Position numbers and translations under genes: made by a program
The notes under the pieces: model-generated
Seen by the model: only the letters and a program-made list of their open reading frames with translations
Database searches by the model: none
Told to the model about the DNA's origin: nothing
Origin: Candidatus Lithacetigena glycinireducens
GTDB lineage: Bacteria; Coprothermobacterota; HKB111
Length of the DNA: 8,344 nt
Assembly (NCBI GenBank): GCA_018725485.1
Contig: QLUP01000037.1
Location: 1 to 8,344 of the forward strand
Direction of reading: 5' to 3'
Shown: piece by piece, positions 1 through 8,344 of the stretch
Layout of the letters: each line of letters opens with the position of its first letter
How positions within the stretch are numbered: position 1 is the stretch's first letter

Positions 1-36
1 GCGGCGGCGTGGAGGCGTTCATTCGTTGGCTTTCGT

Positions 37-66
37 TTGAAAATAGGTGCGAGCAAATGATATAAT
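37..66 (+). promoter_or_regulatory. Predicted extended -10 promoter near left tip
   Basis: A -35 box TTGAAA at 37-42 is followed by an 18-base spacer and a perfect -10 box TATAAT at 61-66. The -10 is preceded by TG one base upstream (58-59), the extended -10 form. Transcription would start near 72-74, at the first bases of the 71-118 hairpin, and run inward. The prediction rests on sequence match only. Confidence 0.5.
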
Positions 67-70
67 TACT

Positions 71-118
71 CCACCAAACAAAAATTCCGAACAGCCGTTC
101 GGAGTTTTTGTTTGGTGG
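71..118. terminator. 22-bp hairpin, probable bidirectional intrinsic terminator
   Basis: Bases 71-92 pair with 97-118 around the four-base loop AGCC. All 22 pairs form, counting one G-T wobble. The inner part, TCCGAAC/GTTCGGA, is GC-richer and is followed by GTTTTTGTTT. The matching A-rich run on the other side means the structure could also stop transcription arriving from the inside. It begins about where the promoter at 37-66 would start its RNA, so it may give a very short RNA, an attenuated leader or a protected 5' end. Confidence 0.6.
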
Positions 119-168
119 TGTTTGCTGGATAAAGTTGGAACTCATTTCCAATAGAACCCAGACTAAGT

Positions 169-219
169 GCCGCCCTGCGGGCGGCAATCCTGCCCAGCGG
201 CTCGCCGCCTGACGGCGGC
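169..219. repeat. Two short GC-rich hairpins in left repeat
   Basis: GCCGCCC at 169-175 pairs with GGGCGGC at 179-185 over a three-base loop, a perfect 7-bp stem. GCCGCC at 204-209 pairs with GGCGGC at 214-219 over the loop TGAC. In addition AGCGGCTCG at 196-204 is complementary to CGAGCCGCT at 327-335, so an alternative fold could enclose the 220-309 stem. No function can be assigned. The same structures are mirrored at 8126-8176. Confidence 0.75.
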
Positions 220-309
220 AAGCAAAGCCCGCAAAAATTTCTTTTTCTTTTAATGGGCACGCGCAAAAAAATTTTTCAATTAAGGAATCAATTTTTGTGG
301 GCTTTGCTT
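220..309. repeat. Long imperfect hairpin 2 in left repeat
   Basis: Bases 220-239 (AAGCAAAGCCCGCAAAAATT) pair with 290-309, with a single G-T wobble, giving a 20-bp stem around a 50-base AT-rich interior. The second arm reads toward the TrpD-like gene as AATTTTTG then GGGCTTTGCTT. It shares the CAAAAATT core with the stems at 71-118 and 366-420, which suggests that one palindrome family built up this repeat. Confidence 0.75.
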
Positions 310-365
310 CTTTGCTGACGCAAGGACGAGCCGCTTCCCACCCCCAGTCTGCCTTCGGTGGGCAG

Positions 366-420
366 AGCAGGCGGACAAAAATTTTCCCCCTCAAACTCCC
401 CCAATTTTTGCCCGCCTGCT
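366..420. repeat. Long imperfect hairpin 3 in left repeat
   Basis: Bases 366-383 (AGCAGGCGGACAAAAATT) pair with 403-420 with one mismatch, giving an 18-bp stem around a 19-base pyrimidine-rich loop. It lies 18 bases upstream of the -35 box at 438. It could be a terminator-like insulator or part of the leader of any transcript that starts at 37-66. Confidence 0.75.
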
Positions 421-437
421 GAAAGGCTGGATTAAAT

Positions 438-466
438 TTTACAAAATTCATTCGCTCTGTTACAAT
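438..466 (+). promoter_or_regulatory. Predicted promoter of the left operon
   Basis: TTTACA at 438-443 and TACAAT at 461-466 are separated by the ideal 17 bases. Each box differs from the sigma70 consensus at one position. Transcription would start near 473 and give a leader of about 30 bases before the ATG at 503. The same promoter in the right repeat copy serves the DNA-binding-protein gene, so the two inward operons should start under identical control. Confidence 0.65.
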
Positions 467-475
467 AAGTATAAC
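459..475. promoter_or_regulatory. Imperfect dyad over the -10 box (possible operator)
   Basis: GTTACAATAAGTATAAC reads nearly the same on the opposite strand. Six of the eight base pairs around the central base are symmetrical, with GTTA and TAAC as outer arms. It covers the -10 box of the left operon promoter. A regulator bound here would block transcription. The small helix-turn-helix protein encoded next to the right copy is an obvious candidate, but this is inference. A/T-rich sequence often makes such partial dyads by chance. Confidence 0.3.
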
Positions 476-502
476 AATGATAAAGTTTTAGAGCAAGTGA
501 TT

Positions 503-1858
503 ATGGAAAACCTGATAAATAGAGTCATTAAATTTACGGAACATATAACGGACGGTAAGGATTTTAAAAAATCAGAAATCCTTGATGTGTTAAATCTGAT
601 TGATAGTTCTGACCGTAATTTGAATGTGTATCGGGGAATTTTAGCTCTCTTCTACTTTGCAAAATTCAATGGATTCCCAGATAGAAGTCTTGAGAAACTC
701 AAAACAGACGAAAATTTTATAAAATGCCTTTCTTTTTTGAAGGGAGACACTTTGCCTCCTCCTGAAGAAGTAGGGGGCGTATTTTTAAACATACTCCAAA
801 TTTCTAGCAGCAATGGGAAATACCGAGATATTTTGATGGGATGTTTTTATGGCTCATTATGGTCGTTTATGAATAGCCCCGAAAATTTTGAAAAGGCAAT
901 TGAATACGGGATAGCAATAGTTAAGTCAGCTTTCAATTTAGATAATCTTGATATCCAACGGAAACTAAATCTTGACAAAAACAAGGTAAAAGTGATTAGT
1001 CTGGCCGGCAGCGGCAAGAAAGAGATCAAATTACTAAATATCAGCTCAATGGCCGCTATTATTACGGCAGCTACTGGTAAAAAGATTGGAGAAAATATTG
1101 TGGTAGAAAAAACCGTATCAAGAGCAACTTCTAGTATAACTGGATCCAGCGACATCTTCGAACTTGTTGGAGTAAATCTAAATTTACCGATTGATAAGAT
1201 GGCCGATATTTCGCTAAAAACAAGATTAGGGGTATTCGATATAAACCTGATTGTTCCTCGATTAAATCATGTATACGATGGTCGTCTGCACGATGTTCAG
1301 GTCTTTGCTGGACTAATTGGCGGAGCGGCTATAGTAAATCCGGTTGATGCCGATTTGATCAATTATGGTTTAACAAGAGGCGCGACAGAATTGTGCTTGG
1401 CGATTTTAAACAAGCTGTACCCAGGCAAAAACATTCTTGTGTTGCAGGGAAAAGACCCGGAGGGCACACCAGTGATTGATCAAATTTCAATATCGGCCAA
1501 CACTGAAATTGCTCAGAGTGTTAAGAATCAGGCAACTATAAAAGAAATTACTCCGAAGGATTTCGGTTTTGATTTCAAACCATTTAAATATATTGAAACG
1601 TCTCAAAATCCTAAAGAAAATCTTAATGAGTTTATTAAGATTTTAATTGGCCGTGGAAGTGAAGAGCTTAAACAAACAGTAGCGATGGAGGTTGCTTTGA
1701 ATCTTTTTGGATTAGAAATGGTTGATGATTTAAAAATAGGAGCTGAACTGGCATTAGAGACTATTAACTCCAGCATCGGGATTAAGGTTCTTGAAGATTT
1801 GGTCGTTCATTCTGGCGGCAATAGAGGAAAGTTTAATAATATCTTAGCGAATATTTAA
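503..1858 (+). CDS. Divergent TrpD-family phosphoribosyltransferase homologue
   Basis: This 451-residue protein resembles anthranilate phosphoribosyltransferase, which joins PRPP and anthranilate in tryptophan synthesis. Collinear landmarks, numbered from the ATG at 503: LAGSGKK at 167-173 in place of GTGGDG, NISS at 179-182 as in NIST, ITGSSDIFELVGVNL from 212 as in the GSADvLEaLGvNL segment, and VIDQIS at 324-329 where TrpD has the metal-binding Asp-Glu pair. A TrpD-like helical C-terminus follows (EDFG-like KDFGF, then ALNLFGL). The diphosphate-loop Asp is absent and the Glu of the Asp-Glu pair is Gln, so the normal reaction is doubtful. The protein is about 100 residues longer than usual TrpD, mostly at the N-terminus. 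I chose ATG 503 over GTG 497 because GTG 497 would leave almost no room for a ribosome site; the only candidate is a weak AGAG at 490-493. The start codon lies inside the inverted repeat. A TrpD2-type nucleic-acid-binding paralogue or another phosphoribosyl/phosphorylase activity is also possible. Confidence 0.85.
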   Translation: MENLINRVIKFTEHITDGKDFKKSEILDVLNLIDSSDRNLNVYRGILALFYFAKFNGFPDRSLEKLKTDENFIKCLSFLKGDTLPPPEEVGGVFLNILQISSSNGKYRDILMGCFYGSLWSFMNSPENFEKAIEYGIAIVKSAFNLDNLDIQRKLNLDKNKVKVISLAGSGKKEIKLLNISSMAAIITAATGKKIGENIVVEKTVSRATSSITGSSDIFELVGVNLNLPIDKMADISLKTRLGVFDINLIVPRLNHVYDGRLHDVQVFAGLIGGAAIVNPVDADLINYGLTRGATELCLAILNKLYPGKNILVLQGKDPEGTPVIDQISISANTEIAQSVKNQATIKEITPKDFGFDFKPFKYIETSQNPKENLNEFIKILIGRGSEELKQTVAMEVALNLFGLEMVDDLKIGAELALETINSSIGIKVLEDLVVHSGGNRGKFNNILANI

Positions 1859-1873
1859 CATGCAGAAGATTCT

Positions 1874-1906
1874 ATGGAGAAAATGAAACAATTAGTAAAT
1901 TTATGA
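1874..1906 (+). other. Possible 10-codon minicistron overlapping the reductase start
   Basis: An ATG at 1874 (or 1883) opens a reading frame, MEKMKQLVNL, whose TGA stop at 1904-1906 overlaps the ATG of the reductase gene as ATGA. It is in the same frame as the TrpD-like gene and could equally be a remnant C-terminal tail after that gene's TAA at 1856-1858. The reductase ATG has no Shine-Dalgarno match of its own, so coupling through this overlap is possible. Such short frames arise readily by chance. Confidence 0.2.
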
Positions 1907-2793
1907 ATTCAATCAATAACGGATATTCTTATTCAAAAATTTGTCTGGGAACATGGCGTATGGGGGGAGACGTAACTCTAAACCAGAACAACGATGATCA
2001 GAAAGACATTGATGCCATCAGATATGCAATCAGTAAAGGTATTTCGCACATAGATACTTCGGAAAGTTATGCGGGTGGAAAAACTGAGTTGCTGATTGGA
2101 GAAGCAATAAAACAAATTCCTAGAGATAAGTGTTTTATAGCTACTAAGGTTCGTGAGTATAATCTTTTTTATGACAATGTAATTGACTCGTGTAAGAAAT
2201 CTCTAAAAAGACTGAATACCTCATACATTGATTTATATTATGTTCATAAACAGAATCCTAACATTCCCATTGAGGAAACAGCCAGTGCCTTCAATAAACT
2301 CCTTGAGATGGACCTTATTAAACATATAGGATTAAGTAATGTAGGAATTGATACAATAAAAAACTATTCTCAACTACTAAATAGTCCTATATATGCAGTT
2401 CAAAACCAATACAATCTCGTCTGTCGCGAATCTCAAAAGAAGGGTGTTATTGATTATTGCAAAAGAAATGAGATTCAGTTTATCGCATGGAGACCTATTC
2501 TACTTTCATATCCCGGAGTTGTAGATCCCTATTATCGTACAGGAACTTATAAACTGCTGGATGAAATGGCTGCAAAATATAATAAAACAAATACACAAAT
2601 TGTAGCCAAATGGCTTTTACAACAGGACGGTGTTTCCTTCGTTTTTAAAAGTTCTAATAAAGAACACATTGATGAAATTTTAGAGGTCGAGAAGTTTAGA
2701 CTTTCTGACAGAGATTGGGAGATATTAGATAAAGAGTTTCCAGTACAAAAAGACTTGGGGTGTACTGCTGATGGTTACTTTGAGTTATCATAA
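1903..2793 (+). CDS. Aldo/keto reductase
   Basis: A 296-residue NAD(P)H-dependent oxidoreductase of the aldo/keto reductase superfamily, a single TIM barrel of about normal length. It would reduce an aldehyde or ketone (or run in reverse) in the cytoplasm. The catalytic tetrad is complete: Asp51 and Tyr56 in DTSESY, Lys82 in ATKV and His115 in YYVHKQ. Barrel markers ICLGTWRMGG (13-22), HIGLSN (141-146), QNQYN (167-171) and the cofactor-binding FKSSNKEHI (248-256) are present. The start is right because only a dozen residues precede the first barrel strand. It follows the TrpD-like gene by 44 bases with no terminator visible, so it is probably in the same operon. Its substrate cannot be read from sequence. 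It is more AT-rich than the gene before it. Confidence 0.93.
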   Translation: MNSINNGYSYSKICLGTWRMGGDVTLNQNNDDQKDIDAIRYAISKGISHIDTSESYAGGKTELLIGEAIKQIPRDKCFIATKVREYNLFYDNVIDSCKKSLKRLNTSYIDLYYVHKQNPNIPIEETASAFNKLLEMDLIKHIGLSNVGIDTIKNYSQLLNSPIYAVQNQYNLVCRESQKKGVIDYCKRNEIQFIAWRPILLSYPGVVDPYYRTGTYKLLDEMAAKYNKTNTQIVAKWLLQQDGVSFVFKSSNKEHIDEILEVEKFRLSDRDWEILDKEFPVQKDLGCTADGYFELS

Positions 2794-2834
2794 CAAATCT
2801 TTTATTTCTATCATTGAATTTTATATAAAAATCT

Positions 2835-3938
2835 ATGATAAAGAAAGAGCATAATGCTGTACTAGAAATAGTAAAGTTTGGTAATAAAAAAAGGAAGACA
2901 GATAAGTTAATTGCAGTACTTGAGGATAATACTTTAAATTGGATCGAAATCTTAGGTTACTTGTGCTACCACCGAGTTGCTGGTCTCGCATATGAGGCTA
3001 TAAACGCAGTCGATGTACGAAAGCTAGATTTCCCCGTTTTTTTTACACTATATATGATTCACCAGTCACAAAATATAAGAACAGAGTTTCAAAAAGAATA
3101 TGTTAAAATCATCTCTTCAACACTGTGTGAAACAAATATAGAACATGTATTTTTAAAAGGGTTAGTTCTATCGAGCACTATTTATCCAGTAGGTACTAGA
3201 GCTTTTAATGATATTGATATATTAGTATCCAAAAAGTCGATTCAAAGCGTAAAAAAAGTTTTGTATGAGCTAGGTTTTTTGCAGGGTAAATATGATTACA
3301 AAAAGGACACTATTGATGAGTTTGACCAAGATACAATTACACAGTCCATAAATACTAGAGGTGAGATGGCGCCTTTTGTCAAAATTGTGAATGAAAAAAC
3401 TATTAAAACCATTGATGTCGATGTTAACTTTTCCTTAGACTGGAAACCGGATGGCTCTGATGAAGCAGTGGATTATTTCTTGAATGAGAGAGTTCTTACT
3501 CCTGTTGACAATAACTTCTCAATCTATTCGCTTAAAGAAGAGCATTTATTTATCCACCTATGCAGTCACTTTTACAAAGATTCAGCTTTGGTAGATTTAG
3601 TTAAAAAAAGAAAGGTTTTGGACTTATATAAATTTGTTGACATATATACATTTATCCAAACGTACTTTGAGGGAATCAGTCCCGAAAAAATATTCGATGA
3701 TTCTGTCAGATACGGTTTTGATAGACACGTATTCTTTACACTAAATTATATTATTAAGGTTTTTCCGGATATACTGGCAATAAAGAACGTTGATGTACTT
3801 TATCAGAAATATAATTATATAAATAATGATGTTATGACAGTAATTTTTGACCAGTATAATTCCGAAATTAAAATAAAAGATAAAAGTAGTTTGATAGATA
3901 GACTATTTTCATACGATATTGTAAAAAACTATAAATAA
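2835..3938 (+). CDS. PF14907-type nucleotidyltransferase-fold protein
   Basis: This 367-residue protein matches the pattern of the 'uncharacterised nucleotidyltransferase' family. FLKG at 106-109 and YPVGTRAFNDIDILV at 117-131 supply the nucleotide-binding G-R and the two metal-binding Asp residues (126 and 128). IDVDVNF from 193 offers a third carboxylate, and the helical region EEHLFIHLCSHFYKD near 235-249 is typical of the C-terminal half. Family members are found in peptide natural-product clusters, including lasso-peptide loci that also carry an HPr-kinase-like gene, which is the arrangement seen here. They would transfer a nucleotidyl or related group, but the substrate is unknown. The gene is very AT-rich and has no clear Shine-Dalgarno sequence. 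It begins 41 bases after the reductase and ends 20 bases before the next gene, consistent with one operon. Confidence 0.75.
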   Translation: MIKKEHNAVLEIVKFGNKKRKTDKLIAVLEDNTLNWIEILGYLCYHRVAGLAYEAINAVDVRKLDFPVFFTLYMIHQSQNIRTEFQKEYVKIISSTLCETNIEHVFLKGLVLSSTIYPVGTRAFNDIDILVSKKSIQSVKKVLYELGFLQGKYDYKKDTIDEFDQDTITQSINTRGEMAPFVKIVNEKTIKTIDVDVNFSLDWKPDGSDEAVDYFLNERVLTPVDNNFSIYSLKEEHLFIHLCSHFYKDSALVDLVKKRKVLDLYKFVDIYTFIQTYFEGISPEKIFDDSVRYGFDRHVFFTLNYIIKVFPDILAIKNVDVLYQKYNYINNDVMTVIFDQYNSEIKIKDKSSLIDRLFSYDIVKNYK

Positions 3939-3958
3939 TTAATGAGTATATAGGGAAC

Positions 3959-5119
3959 ATGGTTCTCATGAATAATCTAACCACAAAAGTAGCCGTGATT
4001 TTTAATGATATTCTAGGGGCAATAACAAATGATTTAAATCATACATCGCATAGTTTGATTAGTGATAACCTGCTGACAAGCATCATCTGCAACTACAGAC
4101 TATGTTCTGATAACTTAATGAAGTTAAGTTCAATATTCAATGTATCGCTAAAGGCTTCACATAATGGTAGTAATGTCATTGAAGCTTTTATTACAGAAAA
4201 CGAAGATGCCTTCCAAAAGATTGAATCCATATTCCAACACTCGGAATGGTCAACGAATGACAGAGTTAGGAAATTTAATGTAGCAACACACAATACTTCC
4301 AGTTCTAAGTGCACAATTGATAATAAATTTTATATTATCAGATGCTACGATCATTTTTATTATATCTACAACACAGAATCGAATCATTGCTTGATGGTAA
4401 CTAAGGGTGAGAAAAAGGCCTTAACCATGGTTAATATTTTGTTACTAACACCATATTTGTTACATGGTGATTTATATGCAGTTCATGGTGGGCTTGTAAG
4501 CGATGGAAAGAATAATGTACTTATAAGCAGTTCTTCTTTAGGTGGAAAGACCACTTTCGCTTTACTGTTTTTAGAAAATGGATGGAAAATCATCACAGAG
4601 GAAACCACATACATAACAAAGCACGGAGAACTGCTTAATTGTAATATAAGGAACTATTTTAATATAAGAGTTGGAACATACTTGGAATTTAAAGACTTTT
4701 TTATAAAAGCCGGTATTATCAATAACTTTTTCTTGACTATGGCGAATACAGCTCAGAAAGAATTATTCGAGCTTGGAAAGAGGGGACAAATGTCAATAGA
4801 CTTTGAATCCTTATGTAAAAATGGGAGTAATACAGCAACTGGTCGAATAACCCATGCGTTGAAAGTTGCTCTAGAAAAAAATCAGTCAGGTATGATTATT
4901 AAAAAGACTAATCCTATAGAGAATGTGGATGGGTTTTTGGAAGTGAGCTTTGCTCCTACCGTGATGCTTTTTAGAAAATTGACTAATATGAATAATTTAA
5001 AAAGAAATAAAAGAAGAGAGGAATTAATGCAAATATTCAAAAATATAAAAAGTTATTCAATAACGTCCGGTTTCGATTATAGAAGAAACTTTAACCTCTT
5101 GTTGGGTGAAATGATATAG
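3959..5119 (+). CDS. HPr-kinase-like P-loop protein
   Basis: A protein of 386 residues with a C-terminal half resembling the HPr kinase/phosphorylase fold. AVHGGLVSDGKNNVLISSSS (174-193) runs into the P-loop SSSLGGKTTFA at about 191-201, and ITEETTY (212-218) stands where HPr kinase has the Mg-binding acidic pair. The P-loop has Ser/Leu in place of the usual first glycines but keeps G-G-K-T-T. The first 150 residues match nothing I recognise. True HPr kinase acts on the sugar-transport protein HPr. Homologues beside PF14907 proteins in lasso-peptide clusters phosphorylate the peptide product instead, so a tailoring kinase is likelier here. The start is ambiguous: ATG 3959 has AGGGA (3952-3956) only two bases upstream, while ATG 3968 has it eleven bases upstream and gives MNNLTTKV. 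It is last in the operon and faces the convergent gene at 5269. Confidence 0.72.
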   Translation: MVLMNNLTTKVAVIFNDILGAITNDLNHTSHSLISDNLLTSIICNYRLCSDNLMKLSSIFNVSLKASHNGSNVIEAFITENEDAFQKIESIFQHSEWSTNDRVRKFNVATHNTSSSKCTIDNKFYIIRCYDHFYYIYNTESNHCLMVTKGEKKALTMVNILLLTPYLLHGDLYAVHGGLVSDGKNNVLISSSSLGGKTTFALLFLENGWKIITEETTYITKHGELLNCNIRNYFNIRVGTYLEFKDFFIKAGIINNFFLTMANTAQKELFELGKRGQMSIDFESLCKNGSNTATGRITHALKVALEKNQSGMIIKKTNPIENVDGFLEVSFAPTVMLFRKLTNMNNLKRNKRREELMQIFKNIKSYSITSGFDYRRNFNLLLGEMI

Positions 5120-5268
5120 TGCATTAACCTCTGACTCCTGTCCTACGGGAAAAATGAAGTGGATCATAAACAAATATTTCACTGATGTTTGTGTTCGGAA
5201 TAAAATACTTATTGGGTGGCAAGATTGCACCTTGGGACCTTACTAGACCTTGCAACACATCTCATAAC
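5120..5268. other. Convergent intergenic region
   Basis: Both operons end here, yet I see no canonical intrinsic terminator. There is a small stem TCCTGT/ACGGGA at 5135-5149, an 8-bp stem CATAAACA/TGTTTGTG at 5165-5193 with one wobble, and a palindrome TCATAACTTATGA at 5262-5274 that overlaps the stop codon of the minus-strand gene. None is followed by a T run. No reading frame of useful length with a start codon is visible on the + strand; I did not check the other strand fully. Confidence 0.6.
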
Positions 5269-6504
5269 TTATGATGTAAACATTTCTTGGTATGTGTCAA
5301 TTTCTTTTTGATATTTTGAGCTTTCCCAGATAGTTTTAATTTCAATAAAAAACTTTAAATATTCATGCTTTATCTTTTTCCAACTCTCATAGTCTGTCGT
5401 TAAATTTTCAAAAGCGCTTTTTGCTTCTATTAACTTATCTGAACTCCAATTAGAGGCAAATACTATCATTTGTAAAATCACTTCTTCATTTCTTCTTCCA
5501 CAGTCAATGATTTTTCTATATAATTCCTCTAAACTGTCCCCTAAATTAATAGAAGAGTTCGGAATGCTTTTTGACATTTTGACATAAGGGAAAAAGCCAT
5601 TAATAAGCTTGCCATATAATGCGCCGATCTCTGCATCCTGACGAACCAAAATGTCCACGCCTCCTCTTTTAAGCTTCATCCTATCAAGTACAATTCTTGA
5701 TAGATACGGATGGTGATGCTCTTCCAAACCTGCCGGTACTATTACGCCTCGTTTTTTGTCACGTACTATAGGTAAGATAATATCTGTCATTGTATATGTC
5801 CGACTCACCATTTTTGAGAAGTCATTCCCAAGCAGTTGTAATCTATTATACGTATCATTAGTAACCTCACGGTTTTCAAGTAAATCTCTAGTACTTAAAA
5901 CACTAGAAACAAGCGAAAACACTCGGGCATGATCATGATGATTATGCGTTCTAATTTCACCTTTTTTCTCATCGAATCCCAGCTTTTTAATAAAGAATAT
6001 GAATTGATGGGCATTTCGTATTAATTCATTTAATGGCTTTTGTCTCGAATTTAACGCGCTTAATTCAGAAATGATTATATGAGTATAAATACCTGTGCAT
6101 TTTTGCAGCTCAAGCACTCTAAAGATGGAAGAAAGCGTACCAGCCGTTGGAGAGTTAGTAGGACCAAATCCCGTTACAATGGCCAATTCATTCGCGGAAA
6201 TTTTGTTGAAAATTTCCAAATTATCATAACACAAATACTTTGAGTTCAATTCATCATTTTTTCCATAATTATGCAACTGAATATTATGAGGAAACTTAGT
6301 ATATTGAAAGTCCTTGATTATTTTCCCAAGTTTTTTATTTGAATATTCCAATTCCTTCAGTGCATGTTTATAATCGTTCGCAACTTCCTCAATTGATTTA
6401 TTCTGTTGTTCTGCTATTTCTTTTAGTTCCTCAATAAAATTATTGAGGATAATTGAAGGGATAGCAGTGCTGCAATTCTTTTTTATGTACCTTTTATTCT
6501 TCAT
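5269..6504 (-). CDS. Divergent TrpRS-like class I aminoacyl-tRNA synthetase paralogue
   Basis: A 411-residue protein, counting from the ATG at 6504, with the Rossmann-type catalytic domain of the TrpRS/TyrRS group. GPTNSPTAGTL (114-124) occupies the HIGH-motif position, with Thr where the second His or Asn would be. AGLEEHHHPYLSRI from 258 resembles the GxDQxPYxxLTR segment of archaeal/eukaryal-type TrpRS, and an intact KMSKS at 309-313 suggests it can still form an aminoacyl-adenylate. About 100 charged, helix-prone residues precede the domain, and the C-terminal 80 residues are also helical. Amino acid and acceptor are unknown: it may charge tRNA with Trp or an analogue, or feed an activated amino acid into a pathway. 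A longer frame to a TTG at 6549 exists but would start inside a terminator stem, so I reject that start. No ribosome site precedes ATG 6504. It lies downstream of a normal TrpRS gene, so it is not the cell's only TrpRS. Confidence 0.75.
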   Translation of the reverse strand: MKNKRYIKKNCSTAIPSIILNNFIEELKEIAEQQNKSIEEVANDYKHALKELEYSNKKLGKIIKDFQYTKFPHNIQLHNYGKNDELNSKYLCYDNLEIFNKISANELAIVTGFGPTNSPTAGTLSSIFRVLELQKCTGIYTHIIISELSALNSRQKPLNELIRNAHQFIFFIKKLGFDEKKGEIRTHNHHDHARVFSLVSSVLSTRDLLENREVTNDTYNRLQLLGNDFSKMVSRTYTMTDIILPIVRDKKRGVIVPAGLEEHHHPYLSRIVLDRMKLKRGGVDILVRQDAEIGALYGKLINGFFPYVKMSKSIPNSSINLGDSLEELYRKIIDCGRRNEEVILQMIVFASNWSSDKLIEAKSAFENLTTDYESWKKIKHEYLKFFIEIKTIWESSKYQKEIDTYQEMFTS

Positions 6505-6512
6505 AAGATTTT

Positions 6513-6556
6513 GAAAAAGAAAAAGCTGGGGTTGCCTTTGTTGTATCAACCCCAGC
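6513..6556 (-). terminator. Intrinsic terminator after TrpRS
   Basis: On the minus strand GCTGGGGTTG (6556-6547) pairs perfectly with CAACCCCAGC (6534-6525) around a 12-base loop and is followed by TTTTTCTTTTT. This is a strong rho-independent terminator beginning four bases after the TrpRS stop codon. It separates TrpRS from the TrpRS-like gene, whose ATG follows only about 20 bases after the stem. Expression of that gene therefore needs read-through or a promoter I cannot see. Confidence 0.9.
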
Positions 6557-6559
6557 CTG

Positions 6560-7552
6560 TTAGCTGAATCCCAAGATCCTCCTGACTTCGTCGAGAGTTT
6601 CGATGGCGTTTTCTCTCGCTACCTTGGCTCCTTCTTCCAGAACGGACGGAATGTACGACGGATTCCGTGTGATCTCGGCTCTTTTGGCCTGAAACTCCCC
6701 GATGAAGTTCTGAACGATGCGGGCCAGAATCTGCTTGAACTGACCCATTACTGGTTTACCGCTCTTGTGTGCCTTGATGATAGCATCCACCTCATCGCGT
6801 TCCGATTCGGTTTTTGCCAACTCTTTGGCAATCAAGATATGGCTTTCCAGTTTCTCGTTCATTATCCCCTCGAAAGCGGTCTCAGCCACCTTGATCTTGC
6901 TGGCAACCGTTTTTACATCGTCCGTCAAGAAGATGGCGCCGCCAGGATTGCTCTTGCTCATTTTACCCTCTCCCTTCAGGGAAAGGATGCGGAGCGACCT
7001 GACCTGCAACACCTGAGGAATCGGTAAAAGCTCCCCGTACCTCTCGTTGAACCTGCGGGCGAGCAGGCGAGTGACTTCCATGTGCGGGAGCTGATCCTCT
7101 CCGACCGCAACCTTTTTGGCTCTGTTTAGCAAGATGTCAGCAGCCATCAGAATCGGATAGAGAAGAAGGAGAGCGTTCGCCGTTTCCGGCCGTGCGTTGT
7201 TCTTGAGCTTATCCTTAAGAGTCGGCACTCTCAAGAGTTCAGCCACAGAGATAAGCCGTGCCAGAAGTGTGGTAAACGTAGTGACTTCTCCTGCTATATC
7301 CGATTGGAGATAGATATTCGTTTTCTGTTGGTCTATCCCAAGCGCGATGTAGTCAGCCACGACTCCGTGGATGTACTGCCTCACAGTAGCCGGTTCGTTG
7401 TCCGTAATCGCGTGAAGATCGGCAACGAAAACCACTGGAGACACGCCCTGCGCCTGAAGTTCAACAATGGGTGCTACTGCCCCCAGGTAGTTAGCGACGG
7501 TCAAGTCGCCAGTGGGTCTGATACCCGTCAATAATTCAACTTTGTACTGCAT
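6560..7552 (-). CDS. trpS: Tryptophanyl-tRNA synthetase
   Basis: This 330-residue enzyme charges tRNA-Trp with tryptophan using ATP, in the cytoplasm. Its length is normal for bacterial TrpRS. PTGDLTVANYLGA (13-25) is the HIGH-motif segment, with TVAN in place of TIGN. ADLHAIT follows, and YPILMAADILL contains the Asp that reads the indole nitrogen in characterised bacterial TrpRS. VGEDQLPHMEVTR is the usual DQ motif, and GEGKMSKS is the KMSKS loop. The ATG at 7552 is chosen over the upstream in-frame ATG at 7657 because AAAGGAGGT sits seven bases before it and a good promoter lies between the two. The protein itself contains no tryptophan. The gene is markedly GC-richer than its neighbours and has its own promoter and terminator, so it looks like a self-contained unit of separate origin. 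Confidence 0.96.
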   Translation of the reverse strand: MQYKVELLTGIRPTGDLTVANYLGAVAPIVELQAQGVSPVVFVADLHAITDNEPATVRQYIHGVVADYIALGIDQQKTNIYLQSDIAGEVTTFTTLLARLISVAELLRVPTLKDKLKNNARPETANALLLLYPILMAADILLNRAKKVAVGEDQLPHMEVTRLLARRFNERYGELLPIPQVLQVRSLRILSLKGEGKMSKSNPGGAIFLTDDVKTVASKIKVAETAFEGIMNEKLESHILIAKELAKTESERDEVDAIIKAHKSGKPVMGQFKQILARIVQNFIGEFQAKRAEITRNPSYIPSVLEEGAKVARENAIETLDEVRRILGFS

Positions 7553-7559
7553 AGCAGAT

Positions 7560-7568
7560 ACCTCCTTT
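7560..7568 (-). promoter_or_regulatory. Strong ribosome binding site of TrpRS
   Basis: The minus strand reads AAAGGAGGT, then seven bases, then the ATG at 7552. It is the only near-perfect Shine-Dalgarno match in the window. It shows that the frame's 35 upstream residues are not part of the protein. Confidence 0.92.
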
Positions 7569-7615
7569 CTTTGGATTTGGGCCTTTTTCAAGGTATTTTT
7601 TAAAGTACTGGGACT

Positions 7616-7644
7616 AGCATAATCCTTTTTTATATTTTTGTCAA
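7616..7644 (-). promoter_or_regulatory. Predicted TrpRS promoter
   Basis: On the minus strand TTGACA (7644-7639), a 17-base spacer and TATGCT (7621-7616) form a near-ideal sigma70 promoter. Transcription would start near 7609, leaving a leader of about 57 bases. That leader is too short for a T-box riboswitch, and I see no Trp-codon leader peptide, so expression may be constitutive. The -35 box lies 15 bases past the stop codon of the DNA-binding-protein gene. Confidence 0.82.
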
Positions 7645-7659
7645 GACTATGGGTCATGT

Positions 7660-7842
7660 TTATTTTCTATTGATAAATTTAATAATATCCTCCTTTTTGT
7701 ATCGCCTCACATTTCGCGGTGTTGGTCTGAAGAGTTTTAAAATCCCTTTTGCATCCCAGCGTCTCAAAGTCATACTAGAAATACCGAGTATCTCCGATAC
7801 TTGTTTCATTGTTAATAATTCTGGGAGTTTTTCTAAATCCAT
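7660..7842 (-). CDS. Small MerR/excisionase-type helix-turn-helix protein
   Basis: A 60-residue protein made almost wholly of one winged-helix DNA-binding domain. LTMKQVSEILGISSMTLRRW is the helix-turn-helix. The following DAKGIL...RPTPRNVRRYKKEDIIKFI is the wing and closing helix, as in MerR, the HTH_17 excisionase-like family and the N-terminus of IS607-type serine recombinases. There is no effector or recombinase domain, so it would act as a small repressor, an activator or a recombination directionality factor. Its start ATG (7842) and everything upstream lie in the right inverted repeat, so it shares promoter and start with the TrpD-like gene. GTG 7848 is an alternative start giving two more residues. 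A role in controlling both repeat promoters is inferred from position only. Confidence 0.78.
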   Translation of the reverse strand: MDLEKLPELLTMKQVSEILGISSMTLRRWDAKGILKLFRPTPRNVRRYKKEDIIKFINRK

Positions 7843-7869
7843 AATCACTTGCTCTAAAACTTTATCATT

Positions 7870-7886
7870 GTTATACTTATTGTAAC
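7870..7886. promoter_or_regulatory. Mirror copy of the possible dyad operator
   Basis: The same 17-base imperfect dyad as at 459-475, here over the -10 box of the DNA-binding-protein gene. It would make that gene autoregulated if its product binds there. This is inference only. Confidence 0.3.
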
Positions 7887-7907
7887 AGAGCGAATGAATT
7901 TTGTAAA
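7879..7907 (-). promoter_or_regulatory. Predicted promoter of the DNA-binding-protein gene
   Basis: On the minus strand TTTACA (7907-7902), 17 bases and TACAAT (7884-7879) repeat the left operon promoter exactly. Transcription would start near 7872 and could continue into TrpRS, since no terminator separates the two genes. Confidence 0.65.
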
Positions 7908-7924
7908 ATTTAATCCAGCCTTTC

Positions 7925-7979
7925 AGCAGGCGGGCAAAAATTGGGGGAGTTTGAGGGGGAAAATTTTTGTCCGCCTGCT
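7925..7979. repeat. Mirror of hairpin 3
   Basis: The 18-bp stem with one mismatch and 19-base loop described at 366-420, in the right repeat. It lies just upstream of the DNA-binding-protein gene's promoter. Confidence 0.75.
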
Positions 7980-8035
7980 CTGCCCACCGAAGGCAGACTG
8001 GGGGTGGGAAGCGGCTCGTCCTTGCGTCAGCAAAG

Positions 8036-8125
8036 AAGCAAAGCCCACAAAAATTGATTCCTTAATTGAAAAATTTTTTTGCGCGTGCCCATTAAAAGAA
8101 AAAGAAATTTTTGCGGGCTTTGCTT
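8036..8125. repeat. Mirror of hairpin 2
   Basis: The 20-bp stem with one wobble described at 220-309, in the right repeat. Confidence 0.75.
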
Positions 8126-8176
8126 GCCGCCGTCAGGCGGCGAGCCGCTGGGCAGGATTGCCGCCCGCAGGGCGGC
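8126..8176. repeat. Mirror of the two short GC-rich hairpins
   Basis: The perfect GC-rich stems at 8126-8141 and 8160-8176 mirror those at 204-219 and 169-185. Confidence 0.75.
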
Positions 8177-8226
8177 ACTTAGTCTGGGTTCTATTGGAAA
8201 TGAGTTCCAACTTTATCCAGCAAACA

Positions 8227-8274
8227 CCACCAAACAAAAACTCCGAACGGCTGTTCGGAATTTTTGTTTGGTGG
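8227..8274. terminator. Mirror of the 22-bp hairpin
   Basis: Same structure as 71-118. The minus-strand promoter at 8279-8308 would fire directly into it. Confidence 0.6.
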
Positions 8275-8278
8275 AGTA

Positions 8279-8308
8279 ATTATATCATTTGCTCGCACCT
8301 ATTTTCAA
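8279..8308 (-). promoter_or_regulatory. Predicted extended -10 promoter near right tip
   Basis: On the minus strand TTGAAA (8308-8303), 18 bases and TATAAT (8284-8279) with upstream TG. It is identical to the promoter at 37-66 and points inward. Confidence 0.5.
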
Positions 8309-8344
8309 ACGAAAGCCAACGAATGAACGCCTCCACGCCGCCGC

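Follow-up and report, generated by a model that had tools for sequence, protein, structure and literature searches.

Gene content and inverted ends of the locus

The stretch analysed here (8,344 nt, hereafter the window) constitutes the entire contig C136 of the assembly G000 (1.24 Mb, 204 contigs), and carries two convergent sets of genes that begin at either end. On the plus strand, a TrpD-like gene (503..1858; Pfam Glycos_transf_3) is followed by genes for an aldo/keto reductase (1903..2793) and an NTP_transf_5 family protein (2835..3938), both assigned by domain search, and for a GGKTT-motif protein (3968..5119) that is HPr-kinase-like by eye, matches no Pfam or NCBIfam family and has homologues in the loci L025 and L040. 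On the minus strand, a MerR/HTH_17 protein of 60-62 aa, recognized in domain searches, is encoded directly behind the right end (7660..7842), followed by a tryptophanyl-tRNA synthetase (TrpRS) of CPR type (6560..7552; TIGR00233, 253.7 bits) and a divergent TrpRS-like class I synthetase paralogue (5269..6504; PF00579, E 5.5e-11). The TrpD-like protein falls below the trpD equivalog cut-off (92 vs 199 bits) and is rare among the relatives, viral contigs, one CPR class and one CPR order that were searched. A Pfam/NCBIfam-type scan of the seven open reading frames of the window detected no recombinase, integrase or transposase, and the window holds no tRNA gene. As a separate observation, positions 503-7552 form a convergent six-gene cluster (the two TrpRS-like proteins, the TrpD-like protein, the aldo/keto reductase, the NTP_transf_5 protein and the HPr-kinase-like protein), which is found in identical order in HRbin35 (L025) and partially in L021, L023, L031 and L040, possibly representing a tryptophan-related or peptide-modification pathway.

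A repeat search recovered a single inverted pair in the window, a left arm at 1..507 (plus) and a right arm at 7838..8344 (minus), 507 nt long, 100% complementary and separated by 7330 nt, a perfect match that is not due to chance. The outer ends of the repeat coincide with the ends of the contig, and 507 bp is thus the minimum extent of the arm; likewise, the 100% identity is an upper bound, since the assembler could have collapsed small differences between the arms. At the inner edge both copies read ...GTTTTAGAGCAAGTGATTATGGA, with divergence beginning past ATGGA, so that GTGATTATGGA forms the inner end of each, two bases beyond the ATG of the TrpD-like gene on the left (503-505, plus) and of the MerR/HTH_17 gene on the right (7842-7840, minus). 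An earlier note on this DNA had described exactly this, an inverted repeat ending two bases past both start codons and two unrelated genes behind one promoter, leader and ATGGA, and both descriptions hold. For either gene an in-frame GTG six bases upstream offers an alternative start.

Two further contig pairs of G000 overlap by exactly 77 nt, typical of a SPAdes assembly at k=77, which was probably used here. Routine terminal repeats left by the assembler were considered as a source of the arms and rejected, as none of about 57 other complete G000 contigs examined carries a terminal inverted repeat. No copy of the full repeat was found outside C136 in G000, 60 GTDB relatives, phages and plasmids. 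Modules of the repeat and its promoter/leader are found in CPR (Patescibacteria) genomes.

Anatomy of the arm

Matches in other loci are given below in the coordinates of the 507-bp repeat arm, R. At its outermost part, 32..55 (mirror 8290-8313) resembles, in reversed orientation on the minus strand, the conserved block that marks unit ends (see below), with a weak profile score of 5.4 bits that none of 200 shuffles approached (none above 2.2). R 23-109 and R 31-83 match the loci L229 and L232 at spots that also hold reversed blocks. This stretch may tentatively be taken for the terminus of an adjoining unit, R then spanning a unit-unit junction, and position 1 may perhaps be the inner edge of the short arm of that neighbour, which would account for both contig ends stopping at one place. 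Further inwards, a terminator-like hairpin, CCACCA...TGGTGG (71..118, plus; mirror 8227-8274), lies at the presumed unit-unit boundary; L219 and L229 repeat this layout behind the 3' end of their tRNA. We also observed a strong promoter-like TTGAAA-18-TATAAT (11/12) at 37-66 that is aimed into this hairpin, and that could yield a very short RNA or be a chance occurrence.

The conserved outer block itself is located at 112..161 (plus) in the left arm and 8184..8233 (minus) in the right, pointing inward in both, and each copy scores 29.1 bits with an end-block profile that was built from nine termini of other genomes with the window left out. It is followed by a hairpin module (193..344, plus; mirror 8001-8152) common to the inverted arms of other CPR units, which is 86% identical to either arm of unit 3 in L217 and matches other CPR genomes at 84-89%, and by a second hairpin module, GCGGGCAAAAATT...AATTTTTGCCCGC (370..416, plus; mirror 7929-7975), of which L218 and L219 have inverted pairs that face inward. 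The innermost part comprises an inward, sigma-70-like promoter, TTTACA-17-TACAAT (438..466, plus; mirror 7879-7907; 10/12 consensus, TG before the -10 box), the architecture of which is also found in L028, L022 and L023, and a conserved leader, AAGTATAACAATGATAAAGTTTTAGAGCAA...ATGGA (466..507, plus; mirror 7838-7879), detected by a matrix search of CPR sequence. Treated as single-stranded DNA, the arm folds far better than its own shuffles (z -8.6).

Both junctions have counterparts in relatives

The right junction is natural as judged from an independent assembly, L028 being contiguous at 87% identity with window 6825-7975, a stretch that takes in 138 bp of the arm together with the HTH gene. 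On the left, L023 and L031 carry promoter/leader sequence upstream of the TrpD-like gene in the same position as in the window, which supports this junction at the level of the motif. The promoter/leader is moreover present in loci that lack the long repeat, at both genes in L023, at the TrpD-like gene in L031 and at an HTH remnant in L022. A promoter/leader matrix trained solely on HTH-side sites was scanned over 401 kb of CPR sequence, and the TrpD-side sites of L031 and L023 (18.7 and 17.4 bits) top all non-training positions, the next best reaching 15.5 bits. Sequence conservation across lineages thus indicates a signal common to both genes rather than a recent copy, and the proposal of the earlier note that a promoter-start cassette had recently been copied onto a new gene is not borne out: the motif already precedes both genes in CPR lineages without the long repeat. 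Two other readings of the motif were discarded. A generic CPR promoter is rejected by the same matrix, which finds no other comparable site in the 401 kb, and stop codons in L023, L028 and L031 argue against the leader being coding sequence.

An inner edge set at the start codons is not a rule of the family either. In related units the arms end variously at the -10 box, some 15 or 35-80 bp ahead of a start, or behind a stop codon. In the window the edge falls at the start codons because unrelated coding sequences begin right behind the shared promoter/leader, where conversion between the arms would stop; the start-codon coincidence therefore needs no special device.

Related inverted-arm units in CPR genomes

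R-like loci of other CPR genomes have inverted pairs of their own, 75-267 bp long and 92-100% identical, that enclose 1-6.5 kb. The most instructive of these is L222, situated in the 634-kb contig G325:C1, in which a truncated HTH gene and a TrpRS (86% to that of the window) are enclosed by arms of 224 bp at 97.8% identity, both of which match R 365-508, promoter included. An HTH homologue behind a matching arm is found in L028, as a gene, and in L222, in truncated form. The TrpRS unit of L222 adjoins a unit with a pseudogene of a large serine recombinase (LSR; arms 136 bp, 95%), the outer arm of which overlaps the 3' end of a tRNA-Ser. Across the 400 kb of G325 surveyed there are only four inverted pairs (at least 50 bp, less than 15 kb apart), and these form two arrays; the other array consists of a tRNA-Glu, a unit with an intact LSR of 479 aa (72-bp arms) and a cargo unit (272-bp arms, 100%) that encodes two DNA methyltransferases and a helix-turn-helix protein. 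Similarly, unit 3 of L217 lies beside an LSR unit and is delimited by 267-bp, 100% identical arms homologous to R 193-344.

Inverted pairing in the cargo-unit loci is partly selected, since most of these loci were found via similarity to R. The LSR loci and the survey of G325 were not chosen in this manner, G325 itself having been reached through an R match, and 35 CPR loci picked independently of the repeat (347 kb) contained no inverted pairs.

LSR relatives, with Resolvase, Recombinase and zinc-ribbon domains, were identified in 110 of the 244 genomes of the CPR order. Of the 30 CPR loci retrieved, 28 have the LSR flanked by inverted arms of 61-145 bp, and in 20 the outer arm end lies 15 bp or less from an inward-facing tRNA 3' end, mostly with a 6-nt overlap. 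At equal thresholds, none of the control loci displayed inverted arms (CPR TrpRS loci 0/29, tRNA-Ser loci 0/12). The end-block profile behaved congruently, with exactly four matches in the 400 kb of G325, each of them at the end of a cargo unit, and none in 488 kb of non-CPR DNA. The tRNA-Ser(gga) site that is filled in G325 has neither LSR nor block in 14 family relatives; an empty-site search at tRNA-Ser returned tRNA matches only, and no clean empty site.

Several loci vary on this theme. L219 (3150-9937) has 92% identical inverted arms ending exactly at a tRNA-Ala and carries a tyrosine integrase (Phage_int_SAM_4) and no LSR. Cargo units in L228 (4637-5740) and L231 (1436-2806) contain, by eye, radical-SAM-like and PqqD-like genes, which suggests peptide-modification cargo. 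In a Desulfovibrio MAG, two inverted repeats of 154-157 bp and 92-94% identity form a chain near the TrpRS (L055, 1270-4247), with no CPR end block.

Origin of the contig

The TrpRS of the window is 86-93% identical to those of several CPR genomes and 34% to that of the same-genus relative G001, the repeat modules of the window are likewise found in CPR genomes, and a search of G000 returned no LSR. Most likely, the contig is CPR DNA placed in the wrong bin; horizontally transferred DNA is the less likely origin. Elsewhere in the sampled part of G000 the end-block profile matches contig C157 only (L020; 420-465, 6347-6432 and 6527-6601), which has, besides an end block of 25.2 bits, a tRNA-Pro gene and a hairpin module resembling that of R, and which may be a further fragment from the same family of elements.

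A probable cargo unit of an element at tRNA genes

We consider it probable, at roughly 70%, that the 507-bp repeat represents the inverted end-arms of a cargo unit in a tRNA-associated LSR mobile element of CPR bacteria. The sequences of the loci compared show that this element consists of abutting units, each with inverted arms of its own, with the LSR unit usually overlapping the tRNA 3' end by about 6 nt and the others carrying cargo. The window shares the traits of this family, with its 507-bp, 100% identical arms, an inward-pointing outer block and a HTH-TrpRS cargo homologous to that of L222 in G325. Counting against this reading are the lack of a recombinase or tRNA in the window, the outer flanks that are absent from the bin, so that neither an LSR unit nor a tRNA was seen beside this unit, the weak reversed block of the neighbour (5.4 bits), the L219 unit with its tyrosine integrase and the lack of a clean empty site.

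The boundaries hint at how the units may be assembled. The core is informative in the L222 array: both the outer left end and the tRNA end have TAAAATGGCGG, and the junction between the units has CCGCCATTTTA. The four boundary cores of L217 likewise alternate in orientation. The outermost tRNA-derived cores of L222 are consequently direct repeats, as expected of attL/attR, and the inner core is inverted. The LSR may insert units at tRNA 3' ends via palindromic attachment sites, leaving the inverted arms behind, and the alternating cores would be the trace of such insertion. Once in place, the arms would serve as insulators of the cassette and as promoters for both convergent operons, and conversion from one arm to the other would keep them identical up to the start codons of the two unrelated coding sequences. 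Mobility of the element is likewise inferred. The suggestion of the earlier note that the repeat is a recombination site for swapping genes is in line with this in one respect, as the structure is of a recombination type and different genes lie between inverted arms, but not in the other, an edge fixed at start codons.

An assembly or amplification artefact, i.e. one promoter copy joined to both genes via a short motif, or a fold-back chimera, must be weighed against the cargo unit, considering that both arms stop exactly at contig ends, that the assembly is of SPAdes type at k=77 with the outer flanks missing from the bin, and that the promoter motif common to both genes could seed a wrong join. 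However, the right junction is contiguous in L028, L023 and L031 have a matching promoter motif at the TrpD-like gene, a TrpRS unit homologous to that of the window lies between inverted arms inside a 634-kb contig (L222), and no other G000 contig examined ends in a terminal inverted repeat. We accordingly regard such an artefact as unlikely; assembly error as the sole cause, which the earlier note had envisaged, is improbable given independent assemblies of like architecture and the 87% contiguity with L028.

Somewhat less probable still is that two co-regulated operons simply came to share a promoter by duplication or gene conversion, with no mobile element. This reading draws on the promoter/leader motif that both genes possess in relatives without the long repeat, but the arms extend far beyond the promoter, and their end block, their hairpin modules and the terminator hairpin mark recombinase-linked unit ends. 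The poorest candidate is a phase-variable invertible segment, where recombinase-driven inversion of the 7.3 kb enclosed by the arms switches expression. Long identical inverted arms, serine recombinases in related units and the alternating orientation of boundary cores would suit such a switch, yet the window lacks a recombinase, insertion accounts better for abutting arrays on tRNA ends, and inversion would leave expression from the arm promoter unchanged because both ends bear the identical inward promoter. We thus favour the cargo unit of an LSR element.

Routes of gene gain are poorly understood for the reduced genomes of CPR bacteria. If the element is what we propose, it would provide a concrete and testable route: linked to a recombinase and found in close to half the genomes of an order, it would move restriction systems and antitoxin-like genes, and a tryptophanyl-tRNA synthetase as well. 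The long inverted arms would furthermore pose the question of how excision copes with large palindromes, be it by tolerating or by avoiding them. Searches of open-access literature on CPR, serine recombinases, tRNA targets and inverted repeats (subscription journals and preprints being outside their scope) turned up no description, and the element is widespread and apparently undescribed.

Comparison with known systems

Genomic islands and integrative elements at tRNA 3' ends share with the CPR element the insertion at the tRNA 3' end with restoration of that end, and the direct repeat of the outer cores as seen in L222. Unlike these, the CPR units each have near-identical inverted arms of 60-500 bp, and the recombinase is mostly an LSR rather than a tyrosine integrase. 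Insertion sequences and transposons with terminal inverted repeats similarly hold DNA between inverted repeats, but the window encodes no DDE transposase, the ends of the CPR units meet tRNA 3' ends and arm sequence is unit-specific.

In SCC, the Ccr LSR inserts at the 3' end of a conserved gene (rlmH), giving composite arrays of cargo and recombinase with inverted repeats near the ends. The CPR element resembles SCC in its putative LSR-driven insertion at a gene 3' end, in its composite arrays and in its inverted repeats; it differs in targeting tRNA genes instead of rlmH, in arms that are hundreds of bases long and nearly identical, and in the lack of a recombinase in the window.

Integrons stack cargo cassettes with recombination sites in between, an arrangement that the CPR element has in common with them. 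The CPR cassettes are however flanked by long inverted arms and most units are tied to an LSR, L219 with its Phage_int_SAM_4 integrase being different. Rather tentatively, one may picture an LSR cassette system with a long-palindrome attachment site, in which units with individual inverted arms pile up at the 3' ends of tRNA genes, core orientation alternating from one boundary to the next, and a terminator and an inward promoter permit expression of any cargo: an integron-like platform built on a serine recombinase.
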